NCBI GenBank assembly: GCA_947568835.1
Contig: OX387608.1
Location: 18,014,535-18,078,534 of the forward strand
Length of the DNA stretch: 64,000 nucleotides
Direction: 5' to 3'
DNA from: Protonemura montana
Taxonomy: Eukaryota; Arthropoda; Insecta; Plecoptera; Nemouridae
Shown here: in pieces, positions 16,291 through 42,410 of the stretch
How positions within the stretch are numbered: the stretch's first letter is position 1
Layout: each line of letters opens with the position of its first letter
Position numbers and translations under genes: made by a program
Notes under the pieces: generated by a model
The model's input: only the letters and a program-made list of their open reading frames with translations
What the model was told of the DNA's origin: nothing
Databases searched by the model: none

Positions 16291-16330
16291 GTCGGCGCTG
16301 TGTGCCAGGAATATTGATAAGACTTGGCGC

Positions 16331-17189
16331 CAGTGTTGAGTAGGAACTTAACGGAAATAACGCGTTCCTTGTAACGCGTTCTTTTTCGGGAACTTTCGCG
16401 GTAACGCGTTCTTTTTTCTTGGTAGTAACGTAACGGAATAACCGTTCCTTTATACCAAGAACGTAAAACGACATTTACGTTCCCGTTAAAGTTCCTATTT
16501 TGGCATTCTTGTAGGTATTTGGTATTTCATTTTTTAATCCTTTCGGGTATTTCAAAAAATAGATAAACTTGGCCATAAGACATGTCACATGTCAAAGTAA
16601 GTCAACGCTGCATTGTTCTCGATTTCCAAAGACTGAGTTCCTCTTTCCGTCCATGCGTCATGCATTTTGCTAAAAAAAACCAAGATCACTGTGCAGGTGT
16701 GGAGACTGGAGAAGCGATGAAGTGGGGTTCATCGTAAACAACCAATGAGCAATTAGCATCATGAGGGAAGAGACACCCCCATACCCCGAAGTATCTGCTC
16801 ATCCCCCGACATTTAAATCTTTGCCTGGCCCGTGTCTCGTTCAGTTTACAGTCGTTACTCGTCCTGTGGTTTCGTCCTTCGTTCGGTTTTCGCTTAAACG
16901 TTTTAAACGTCGTTTTACCATTCGAAAATGTCAAGCCTTTTTTTTTTGTTGGAAGAGCAAGACGGCATTGGCTTGAATTTTCGTGCTAAATGCCTTTTGT
17001 GTGTTCCGTTTCAAAAGTTTTGGTATAAGTCGAGAATTTTTAAGGAACTGAAATATGAACTTAGTTCCTTTTGAGGAACTATTCAGTTCCTATTTATTTT
17101 TAGGAACTGGAACTGAATTAAGTTCCTTTCAAGGAGGAGGAACTGGAACTGAACTAAGTTCTTTTTTAAAAGGAACTTACTCAAGACTG
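16331..17189 (+). mobile_element. non-autonomous hAT-like transposon, 859 bp
   Basis: Flanked by an 8-bp target-site duplication CTTGGCGC (16323-16330 and 17190-17197). The termini are inverted: the left end reads CAGTGTTGAGTAGGAACTT, and the right end read in reverse CAGTCTTGAGTAAGTTCC. The CAG(T/G) ends with an 8-bp duplication are the hallmark of hAT elements. Internally, a frame from 16928 begins MSSLFFLLEEQDGIGL and has a CLLC pair like the start of a BED finger; it stops early, so no transposase is encoded. Copy 2 of the block has the unfilled site at 34546-34553, one CTTGGCGC only. Confidence 0.88.
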
Positions 17190-17304
17190 CTTGGCGCTAA
17201 TCCACCTTGTATTTGTTCTACGTGATTTAAAACTCCAATCATACTTTATCTTGCTATCGCAACACCAAGGCTTCCTGCTATGCCATAACATGCCATAACG
17301 AACC

Positions 17305-18168
17305 ATGTCATACCATACCATTAGATATACCATACCTTGCCATGCCATGCCATGCCATGCCATGCCATGCCATGCCTTGCCTTGCCATGCCATGCCATGC
17401 CATGCCATGCCATGCCTTGCCTTGCCATGCCATGTCTTGCCATGCCATGCCATGCCATGCCTTGCCATGCCTTGCCTCGCCATGCCATGCCATGCCTTGC
17501 CATGCCTTGCCATGCCTTGCCATGCCTTGCCATGCCTTGCCATGCCATGCCATGCCTTGCCATGCCATGACATGCCTTGCCATGCCATGCCATGCCTTGC
17601 CTCGCCATGCCTTGCCATGCCATGCCTTGCCTTGCCTTGCCTTGCCTTGCCATACCATGCCATGCCATGCCATGCCTTGCCATGCCATGCCTTGCCTTGC
17701 CTTGCCATGCCTCGCCATGCCATGTCATGCCTTGCCATGCCATGCCATGCCTTGCCATGCCATGCCTTGCCATGCCTTGCCTTGCCATGCCATGCCTTGC
17801 CATACCATGCCATGCCATGCCATGCCATGCCATGCCTTGCCATGCCATGCCATGCCATGCCTTGCCATGCCATGCCTTGCCTTGCCATGCCATGCCATGC
17901 CATGCCATGTCATGCCTTGCCTTGCCATGCCATGCCATGTCATGCCTTGCCATGCCATGCCATGCCATGCCATGTCATGCCTTGCCTTGCCATGCCATGC
18001 CATGCCATGCCATGCCATGGCATGCCATGTCATGCCATGCCTTGCCTTGCCATGCCATGCCATGCCATGCCATGCCATACCATGCCATGCCTTGCCATGC
18101 CTTGCCATGCCATGCCATGCCATGCCATGTCTTGCCTTGCCCTGCCATGCCATGCCATGCCTTGCCAA
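17305..18168. repeat. (TGCCA/TGCCT)n pentanucleotide array, copy 1
   Basis: About 840 bp of 5-bp units, TGCCA with frequent TGCCT and rare TGTCA, TACCA or TCGCC variants. Long open frames on both strands (Met-Pro-Cys-His-Ala type and its reverse) arise only because the unit has no stop in most frames. Copy 2 has the same array but only about 520 bp long. Confidence 0.95.
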
Positions 18169-18798
18169 ACGAGGGACTTTTGACCAATATTTCCCGAGCA
18201 ATATTTGGTTTTGTTCCACGTGGCTGGTGCTGGTGCTGGTGCTGCTAGAAATGGTTGATCTTACAAGATGCTGTGGTTCTGTATCTTTAGAGTTTTTAAG
18301 CTTAGAGTAAACAATCTAACAATCCTTCCATTGTCTCTGACTAAAGAGATGTTCGCAAGCTTCCATTACATTGCGTCGATCTGTTGATTCTTGATGGCCG
18401 TTATGATTTGATGGCTTTTTGTCTGCTGTCAGATTTAATAGAGGCTTCTCTTTGGCTTCTCTTTGGCTTCTATTTAACTTCTATTTCGGTTGATGTTTGT
18501 GCGTTGTTTCAAACGGAAACTGGTTTACCGAGGCAAGATCGTGAGTCGCCGCTATTTCCGACTCTCGCCGAGTGCATCGACGTTGAATGACGGCGTTGTC
18601 GCTTAACTCGGTCGCTGTGACGTCAGACAGTAGCTGGTGACGTCAGACAGTAGACTGATATCTGTACACGCCTTGAGCTCGCGTGTTGAACGAAGCCTTC
18701 TAAACGCCCGTCCCCTTCTAGACACTGAATCTAGGGTCCCTAGCAGAACAAACTCTTATTACACTTGGTACTTCATTCACTTGTTTCTTTTGTTTCAG
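18169..18798 (+). other. SERCA upstream/intronic segment before exon 2
   Basis: Single-copy-like sequence conserved in both blocks (copy 2: 35208-35833). It holds repeated GGCTTCTCTTT runs near 18441 and two CRE palindromes at 18618-18645. No Met-led SERCA exon 1 is present: nothing encodes the expected residues before the ELPAEEG microexon. Confidence 0.5.
18618..18645. promoter_or_regulatory. two CRE-type palindromes, copy 1
   Basis: TGACGTCA occurs at 18618-18625 and 18638-18645 inside a 20-bp tandem duplication (TGACGTCAGACAGTAG in each). TGACGTCA is the full cAMP-response-element palindrome bound by CREB/ATF proteins. Position upstream of SERCA exon 2 suggests a regulatory role, but this is inference. 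Confidence 0.4.
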
Positions 18799-18816
18799 AA
18801 TTACCTGCTGAAGAAG
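18799..18816 (+). CDS. SERCA: SERCA copy 1, 18-bp microexon (exon 2)
   Basis: Preceded by TTTTGTTTCAG and followed by GTGAGT. With flanking phases it encodes ELPAEEG. An 18-bp second exon is also found in vertebrate ATP2A genes, so this is an ancient exon structure. Confidence 0.88.
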
Positions 18817-18906
18817 GTGAGTTTCATTTACAAGATTAATTCCTAAATGACAGAAACAAGTTGTCTTTGTTGCACTTTGATTCTAAATTGTTTTTATTTC
18901 CCGCAG

Positions 18907-40095: not shown

Positions 40096-40377
40096 GTGAG
40101 ATTCTTCCCACACACAAAGAGAGATTCTGTGTGATTAGTTGTTGGAAATTAATCTAGATTTGCTACGGTAACCAATAGCTGTCAAAACACCCAATTGTAA
40201 ATATAGCTGGCATTATTTTCAATGAGAATCCCAGCTCTGTTTGAGATTCAGAATAATTTAGTAAATATGACAGCTTGCACTGTTGGCTTTCATCTGTTAA
40301 GCATAAAGAAAGCTGAGGCTTGTGAACCCAGTAAACTCCTAGAGGCTGTATTAGTAATTCTGTTGTTCTGATTCTAG

Positions 40378-40822
40378 GAAACATCTGCATCATGTGCAAT
40401 GACTCTTCAATTGACTTCAACGAATTCAAGCAAGCTTTTGAGAAAGTAGGAGAAGCCACCGAGACTGCTGTACTTGAACGTTGCACACATGCCCGAGTTG
40501 GTACACAGAAAGTGCCGCTGACGCCCACGTTGAAGAAACGCATCCTGGAGCTCACTGCCACCTACGGTTGCGGAAGAGAGACTCTCCGTTGTCTTGCCCT
40601 GGCTGTCGCTGATACCCCAATGAAACTGGAGGACATGAACCTGACAGACTCGACCAAGTTCTACACTTATGAAGTCAACCTTACCTTCGTTGGAGTCGTT
40701 GGAATGTTGGATCCTCCTCGCAAGGAAGTCTTCGACGCCATTGTACGATGCAGGGCCGCTGGAATCCGAGTCATTGTCATCACTGGAGATAACAAGGCTA
40801 CAGCTGAAGCCATCTGCCGCAG
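40378..40822 (+). pseudogene. SERCA: SERCA copy 2 exon 9 with 228-bp in-frame deletion
   Basis: 445 bp against 673 bp in copy 1. GEATETA joins directly to [11 protein letters not shown]. The donor is the same GC-type CAG/GCACGT. Confidence 0.92.
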
Positions 40823-40832
40823 GCACGTATAA

Positions 40833-42120
40833 TACACAAGCTTGCACCAAGCCATATACCTTGGTACACATGTCCCTGACTCCCATTGAAGATGCCAACC
40901 CAGCTGTACACATCCATGCTTGCACCATGCCCTATACCTTGACACACATGTCCCTGGCTCCCATTGAAGATGCCAACCCAGCTGTACACATCCATGCTTG
41001 CACCATGCCCTATACCTTGACACACATGTCCCTGGCTCCCATTGAAGATGCCAACCCAGCTGTACACATCCATGCTTGCACCATGCCCTATACCTTGACA
41101 CACATGTCCCTGACTCCCATTGAAGATGCCAACCCAGCTGTACACATCCATGCTTGCACCATGCCCTATACCTTGACACACATGTCCCTGGCTCCCATTG
41201 AAGATGCCAACCCAGCTGTACACATCCATGCTTGCACCAAGCCCTATACCTTGACACATATGTCCCTGGCTCCCATTGAAGATGCCAACCCAGCTGTACA
41301 CATCCATGCTTGCACCAAGCCCTTTACCTTGACACACATGTCCCTGGCTCCCATTGAAGATGCCAACCCAGCTGTACACATCCATGCTTGCACCATGCCC
41401 TATACCTTGACACACATGTCCCTGGCTCCCATTGAAGATGCCAACCCAGCTGTACACATCCATGCTTGCACCATGCCCTATACCTTGGCACACATGTCCC
41501 TGGCTCCCATTGAAGATGCCAACCCAGCTGTACACATCCATGCTTGCACCATGCCCTATACCTTGGCACACATGTCCCTGGCTCCCATTGAAGATGCCAA
41601 CCCAGCTGTACACATCCATGCTTGCACCATGCCCTATACCTTGACACATATGTTCCTGGCTCCTATTGAAGATGCCAACCCAGCTGTACACATCCATGCT
41701 AGCACCATGCCCTATACCTTGACACACATGTCCCTGGCTCCCATTGAAGATGCCAATCCAGCTGTACACATCCATGCTTGCACCATGCCCTATACCTTGA
41801 CACACATGTCCCTGACTCCCATTGAAGATGCCAACCCAGCTGTACACATCCATGCTTGCACCCTGCCCTATACCTTGACACACATGTCCCTGGCTCCCAT
41901 TGAAGATGCAAACCCAGCTGTACACATCCATGCTTGCACCATGCCCTATACCTTGACACACATGTCCCTGGCTCCCATTGAAAATGCCAACCCAGCTGTA
42001 CACATCCATGCTTGCACCATGCCCTATACCTTGACACACATGTCCCTGGCTCCCATTGAAGATGCCAACCCAGCTTTACACATCCATGCTTGCACCATGC
42101 CCTATACCTTGACACATATG
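40833..42120. repeat. 78-bp minisatellite in GC-AG intron, copy 2
   Basis: About 16.5 units. Open frames of 489 codons (plus) and 413 codons (minus) span it but are products of the stop-free 26-codon unit. Confidence 0.93.
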
Positions 42121-42148
42121 TTCCTGGCTAACAGCTGATTGGTTGCAG

Positions 42149-42374
42149 GATTGGAGTATTCACTGAAGAAGAGGACACAACTGGAAAGTCTTACTCTGGT
42201 CGTGAGTTTGATGACCTGCCCGTAGCTGAACAGAAGGCCGCCGTTGCCCGCTCTCGATTGTTCTCTCAAGTGGAGCCGTCTCAGAAGTCAAAGATCGTTG
42301 AATTCTTGCAGAGCATGAATGAGGTCACTGCTATGACTGGAGATGGTGTCAATGACGCTCCTGCCCTCAAGAAG
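42149..42374 (+). CDS. SERCA: SERCA copy 2 exon 10, last exon present
   Basis: Ends [13 protein letters not shown] before GTGTGT. CAA at 42267-42269 and CAG at 42282-42284 replace conserved Arg and His codons. No following exon in this copy. Confidence 0.9.
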
Positions 42375-42410
42375 GTGTGTATTTGTCCTAACCTAACCTA
42401 GCCTTACCTA

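Follow-up and report, generated by a model that had tools for sequence, protein, structure and literature searches.

A 64,000-nucleotide stretch of the genome of Protonemura montana, hereafter the window (contig C11, positions 18,014,535-18,078,534, in an assembly of 258,480,905 bases in 34 contigs), carries two incomplete copies of SERCA, a P-type Ca2+ ATPase whose gene is essential in animals. Comparison of the window with itself recovered two SERCA blocks, and a protein search placed SERCA exons in order in both. Exons are numbered throughout after a 14-exon intact SERCA gene on contig C1, which also served as the reference for delimiting the exons. The outer edges of the blocks, given as 16,291 and 42,410 in a preliminary description of this DNA, coincide with breakpoints. 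Introns are retained in both copies, and the 5' junctions of both (16,291 and 34,026) fall in sequence of intron 1. Exon 1 is missing from each copy, and nothing in the window matches the initial 1,570 bases of the C1 stretch, which cover the upstream region, exon 1 and the start of intron 1.

Copy 1 lies on the plus strand and opens at 16,291-16,330 with a junction between SERCA intron 1 and other sequence, recognized by its junction pattern and by comparison with the C1 gene and here called type A. Inspection of the sequence revealed a putative hAT-like insertion in the intron 1 remnant (16,331-17,189) with the 8-bp repeat CTTGGCGC on both sides. Exons 2-5 follow at 18,799-18,816, 18,907-18,989, 19,066-19,170 and 19,841-19,979, with a degenerate CCTAA array within intron 4. 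Exon 6 (21,111-21,339) has lost its acceptor and first 5 bases, which are replaced by the end of a 52-bp array, so that the match to C1 starts at 21,111; this junction is unique to the window copy (1 place), and the acceptor is intact at 38 places, the C1 gene included. Exons 7-10 (22,129-22,359, 22,802-23,113, 23,396-24,068 and 24,848-25,073) precede an exon 11 (25,818-26,288) in which a TAT codon has become TAG at 26,250-26,252, and exons 12-14 occupy 26,578-26,711, 26,919-27,036 and 27,123-27,242. All of exons 2-14 are detected, at 97.9-100% identity to the C1 gene. The duplicated block continues on the same strand from 27,243 to 33,112, where homology to C1 ends. It comprises the SERCA 3' flank and, past a shared junction near 30,254, sequence with minus-strand open reading frames (ORFs), and its identity with the C1 locus is 99.1% and 97.9%. 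These ORFs are perhaps part of the next gene, and no Pfam match above the cut-off was found for the ORFs of this downstream block. A 1.3-kb insertion at 28,714-30,011 splits the block and contains a reverse transcriptase ORF on the minus strand (28,863-29,828).

Copy 2 spans 34,026-42,409, also on the plus strand, and opens with a different junction, type B (34,026-34,388), at which a 59-bp array of SERCA intron 1 is joined to a retroelement-like ORF (33,060-34,026) that the junction interrupts. Exons 2-5 lie at 35,834-36,797 and exons 6-8 at 38,088-40,095, with an intact exon 6 acceptor and the exon starting at 38,088. Exon 9 (40,378-40,822) bears an in-frame deletion of 228 bp, or 76 codons, in the nucleotide (N) domain, and exon 10 (42,149-42,374) is the last; SERCA homology ends at 42,409, directly after a short CCTAACCTAACCTA run. 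The preliminary description had these lesions right: a copy 1 complete at its 3' end (exons 11-14 all present) with one acceptor lost and one nonsense codon, and a copy 2 in which that exon is intact and part of the nucleotide domain and every exon past 10 are gone. It overlooked that exon 1 and the upstream region are absent from both copies as well.

A functional locus elsewhere, one of two explanations then offered, was borne out by a genome search, which found one intact SERCA gene at C1:32,889,161-32,901,364, with 14 exons and 1,020 codons to the stop. The exon 1 region occurs once in the genome (C1:32,889,061-32,889,400). All 13 acceptors of the gene read AG, and its donors are GT at 12 sites and GC at one. 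Against rabbit SERCA1, 994 codons align and 710 are identical, and the last exon continues to the stop. The protein holds the TGES, DKTGT, KGAPE and GDGVND motifs of a complete, catalytically equipped P-type ATPase, matches seven Pfam families, including Cation_ATPase_N and Cation_ATPase_C, and has SERCA2 and SERCA1 as its best PDB chains, with up to 1,622 bits. As a SERCA the protein is unremarkable; the introns of its gene hold eight tandem arrays (L070, L071), including a CCTAA array, with units of 59, 5, 5, 52, 11, 78, 49 and 44 bp. Weaker matches elsewhere in the genome (35-55% identity), considered as a possible second SERCA, look like other P-type ATPases. It is probably this single gene that supplies the pump.

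The window copies belong to a family of about 50. Genome-wide counts of exon matches are lower bounds here and are to be read as "at least". The exon 8 query gave 56 matches. Of these, 51 (including the C1 gene) are 85-100% identical, and the other 5 are weak, at 45-55%, and resemble other ATPases. For exon 9 there were 62 matches (39 of full length, 2 from one frame-split copy, 18 from 9 deletion copies, 1 fragment and 2 weak), and for exon 11 there were 46, of which 42 were 96-100% identical. The 51 exon 8 loci are distributed over all 11 large contigs (C1-C5 and C11-C16, together 247,565,357 bases; C6-C10 measure 0.1-1.1 Mb), and every one lies 32-1,006 kb from one contig end. The end nearest the SERCA loci is constant within each contig, and all 51 loci read toward it. 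The complementarity of the lesions in the window is incidental, both copies being members of this family. Contig C3 terminates exactly at a type A junction (L076), so one more copy may lie beyond its assembled end.

We inspected 400 bases at 10 of the 11 SERCA-side contig ends (all except C4), together with five opposite ends. The C16 end opens with (CCTAA)n followed by CCAAA repeats, which makes the shared end telomeric at C16 and probably elsewhere. The ends of C1, C11 and C13 finish in (GGTTT)n or (CCAAA)n, those of C2 and C12 read N, and neither repeat was found over the 400 bases at C3, C5, C14 and C15. None of the five opposite ends inspected carries these repeats. Loss of telomerase was considered as a cause of recombination between ends and set aside, as a telomerase RNA-binding domain model matches C12 twice above its cut-off, at C12:13,209,749 and 13,219,864 (L118, L119), 10 kb apart.

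Both 5' junctions recur throughout the family. Type A occupies 32 places, spread over all 11 large contigs, and type B 18 places on seven contigs. When each exon 8 locus is assigned to the nearest 5' junction no more than 13 kb upstream, 31 of the 51 stand behind A, 18 behind B and two behind neither (the C1 gene and C2:244,493), so that 49 of the 50 copies are typed; one A junction is common to two loci on C5. A common 3' junction downstream of SERCA occurs at 38 places on all 11 contigs and is absent from the C1 gene. Since type B links the retroelement-like ORF that follows the downstream block to the 59-bp array of intron 1, it reads as the tail-to-head junction that a tandem duplication would leave. 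In seven type A copies (on C2, C4, C11, C13, C14 and C15) the junction is no more than 2.4-3.1 kb upstream of exon 8 and no exon 6 acceptor is listed nearby; these copies seem to have lost exons 2-6 together. Type A and type B copies are frequently neighbors on other contigs as well, and a pair of copies on C5 and a pair on C12 are spaced 20,655 and 20,650 bases apart, as if larger stretches had moved together.

This recurrence bears on the second explanation in the preliminary description, namely that the assembly had joined two haplotypes. An artefact of that kind, in which false duplications or the two haplotypes of a single SERCA locus had been placed head to tail, would be in keeping with the two SERCA-side contig ends that read N and the four others without end repeats. 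It is nonetheless very unlikely, because the window blocks differ in their 5' breakpoint and each breakpoint recurs at many places, often in neighboring A-B pairs; in addition, the copies differ in private and shared lesions and a complete gene lies at a third place. The same loci argue against capture of a SERCA fragment by a transposon, Helitron-like or retroelement, that then inserted it at many places. The retroelement-like and hAT-like sequence in and beside the blocks fits such a capture, but we consider it extremely unlikely, given that the 51 exon 8 loci are all located close to a single end of each contig and read in one direction, that A and B copies are often adjacent, and that the C5 and C12 pairs agree in spacing within 5 bases. 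The retained introns further indicate that the copies were not retrocopied.

Several lesions are shared across contigs and across junction types. The exon 11 stop of copy 1 is present in 28 of the 30 loci compared, out of 42, and absent from the C1 gene and from a copy at C1:33.00 Mb; in 10 of these 30 the second codon of exon 11 is TAG, and 12 of the 42 exon 11 loci contain an internal TAG. The exon 8 acceptor has changed from AG to AA in 10 of 36 sequences. Variation in exons 8-9 was compared in 35 of the 50 copies, and in two of the 35, deletions of 1 and 7 bp at exon 9 break the frame. The 228-bp deletion of copy 2 is found in nine copies, four of type A and five of type B, on C5, C11, C12 and C15; sequence therefore seems to pass between A and B copies. 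The working gene seems to take part in this exchange, because the C1:33.00 Mb copy switches type within its length: at 36 diagnostic sites it is copy-type up to position 11,802 of the C1 stretch (one site unclear) and master-type from 12,249, with two exceptions.

Over 1,048 columns in the 35 copies, the mean distance between copies is 0.44% within contigs (68 pairs) and 0.46% between contigs (527 pairs), and 10 pairs are identical although they lie on different contigs. The contig label changes 23 times on the tree, where shuffled labels average 24.0 changes and 104 of 300 shuffles are as low; the copies do not cluster by contig. Only one of the 26 inner branches is well supported, and we therefore rely on shared lesions and distances instead. 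Window copy 1 groups with the copy at C5:352k (support 92/80) and copy 2 with those at C5:335k and C12:411k (97/87), as if the window pair had moved as a unit.

Selection on the copies was assessed from nonsynonymous and synonymous changes, with the neutral expectation computed at a transition weight of 2. Exons 8-9 in the 35 copies show 26 nonsynonymous and 10 synonymous changes, in line with the 26.4 and 9.6 expected under neutrality. In exons 10-11 the counts are 18 and 14 against 23.6 and 8.4 expected, a synonymous lean, among 27 copies that remain of the 30 loci once the C1 gene (L024), the recombinant (L025) and a locus that diverges in intron 11 (L035) are dropped. The copies might still be used, as headless SERCA fragments transcribed into a short protein or a regulatory RNA that acts on the pump, and the synonymous lean, the in-frame deletion shared by nine copies and the lack of an internal stop in any of the 62 exon 9 matches would agree with such a use. 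Against this stand the neutral ratio in exons 8-9, where about 1.2 stops are expected and 2 are seen, the exon 11 stops, the lost exon 8 acceptors, the frame-breaking deletions at exon 9 and the missing exon 1 region, and we judge continued use to be decidedly unlikely. The proposal that both window copies are decaying pseudogenes is supported by the intact C1 gene and by neutral exons 8-9, though exons 10-11 lean synonymous.

We conclude that the window copies are very probably unprocessed, 5'-truncated pseudogenes of one subtelomeric duplicon that appears to have spread between chromosome ends. The shared breakpoints and lesions, the location and uniform orientation, the absence of clustering by contig, the neutral exons 8-9 and the intact C1 gene are the observations behind this conclusion; we infer in what order events took place, which repair pathway was at work and that the copies are silent. 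Initially, a part of a SERCA locus that starts at the 59-bp array of intron 1, includes the 3' flank and reaches into a downstream retroelement would have been duplicated in tandem, leaving a second copy (type B) without exon 1. The first copy of such a pair may then have been severed within intron 1 and fused to other sequence, giving type A. Exchange between chromosome ends, through translocation of tips, break-induced copying or unequal crossing-over, would subsequently have carried the A-B unit to one end of each large contig, in each case with gene orientation toward the end preserved. Thereafter the copies would collect their disabling lesions (absence of exon 1, stops, lost acceptors and deletions) under little or no selection and swap them by recombination. 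A more far-reaching possibility is that the SERCA pieces form a standard chromosome-end unit, kept at one end of every chromosome for end-to-end recombination as a telomere backup or for meiotic end pairing, with the sole working SERCA, at the C1 edge, still exposed to exchange with its broken copies; this we regard as unlikely.

Certain observations weigh against the duplicon interpretation. Two of the 32 A junctions are inverted and lack exon 8, and TTAGG repeats were found at one of the 10 SERCA-side ends inspected (C16). A stretch of 3.2 kb at the C1 locus is absent from the copies. The absence of internal stops from exon 9 and the synonymous lean of exons 10-11 leave room for weak constraint or inherited functional variation in the copies. 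Fixed differences between the copies and the C1 gene amount to 17 in 981 bp of intron, 3 in 1,801 bp of exon and none in 401 bp of 3' flank; with far more of them in introns than in exons, the copies probably descend from a different allele or an older copy rather than from the exact C1 gene, and the same distribution suggests that this founder was once a functional allele.

Repeats resembling telomeric sequence at the edges of blocks are usual for subtelomeric duplicons but not strictly defining, and none were found at the A, B or common 3' junctions in the window; CCTAA occurs elsewhere, as the short run at the end of copy 2 and as arrays in intron 4.

Outside the SERCA blocks, the window contains large satellites at 1-5,795 (46-bp unit), 7,738-8,678 (41 bp), 8,691-10,820 (28 bp) and 52,271-54,761 (91 bp). 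The 41-bp satellite is found again downstream of the C1 gene, as is the 52-bp array of SERCA intron 5. At 43,307-50,279, two direct repeats of about 890 bp (98.2% identity) bracket a minus-strand ORF of 863 amino acids that has no Pfam match at 0.001.

Through its lesions the family clearly records how fragments of a gene have moved between the ends of non-homologous chromosomes in an animal, and its two founding 5' breakpoints can be counted. It also places an essential gene, found intact once, at the border of a region that recombines and holds about 50 defective templates, and the gene appears to have recombined with at least one of these. For annotation, the roughly 50 SERCA-like loci of this genome should be treated with caution, as they are probably not genes.

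Among known systems, human subtelomeric duplicons are described as patchwork segmental duplications near chromosome ends that contain genes and pseudogenes, keep their orientation toward the telomere and are proposed to originate from translocation of chromosome tips (PMC2323237). The SERCA family resembles them in its mosaic structure near ends and its preserved orientation (PMC2323237). High identity between different chromosomes, a further trait of subtelomeric duplicons, is seen in it as well. It departs from them in occupying one end of each of 11 large contigs, in deriving from one essential pump gene, and in having its telomere-like repeats inside an intron and not where the A, B and common 3' junctions lie. 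DDX11L is a rearranged portion of one gene distributed over many human subtelomeres, presented as a family of transcripts and an emerging gene family (PMC2705379). The spread of a gene portion over many ends is common to both, and the SERCA copies are known from DNA. In a literature search that covered part of the matching papers, SERCA was not reported in subtelomeres, nor were a calcium ATPase, pseudogenes and subtelomeres found together. The Y' elements of yeast are gene-bearing repeated units at chromosome ends, common to several chromosomes, with a helicase-type ORF next to the terminal repeats. The SERCA unit is likewise a repeated, gene-bearing unit shared between chromosome ends, but no helicase was found in it, only SERCA pieces and ORFs without a Pfam match; its copies are set back 32-1,006 kb from the contig ends, and exons 8-9 carry no sign of selection for frame. 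What is uncommon in the SERCA family is that its source gene is essential, found intact once and still located at the edge of the region, and that the unit is present at one end of every large contig.

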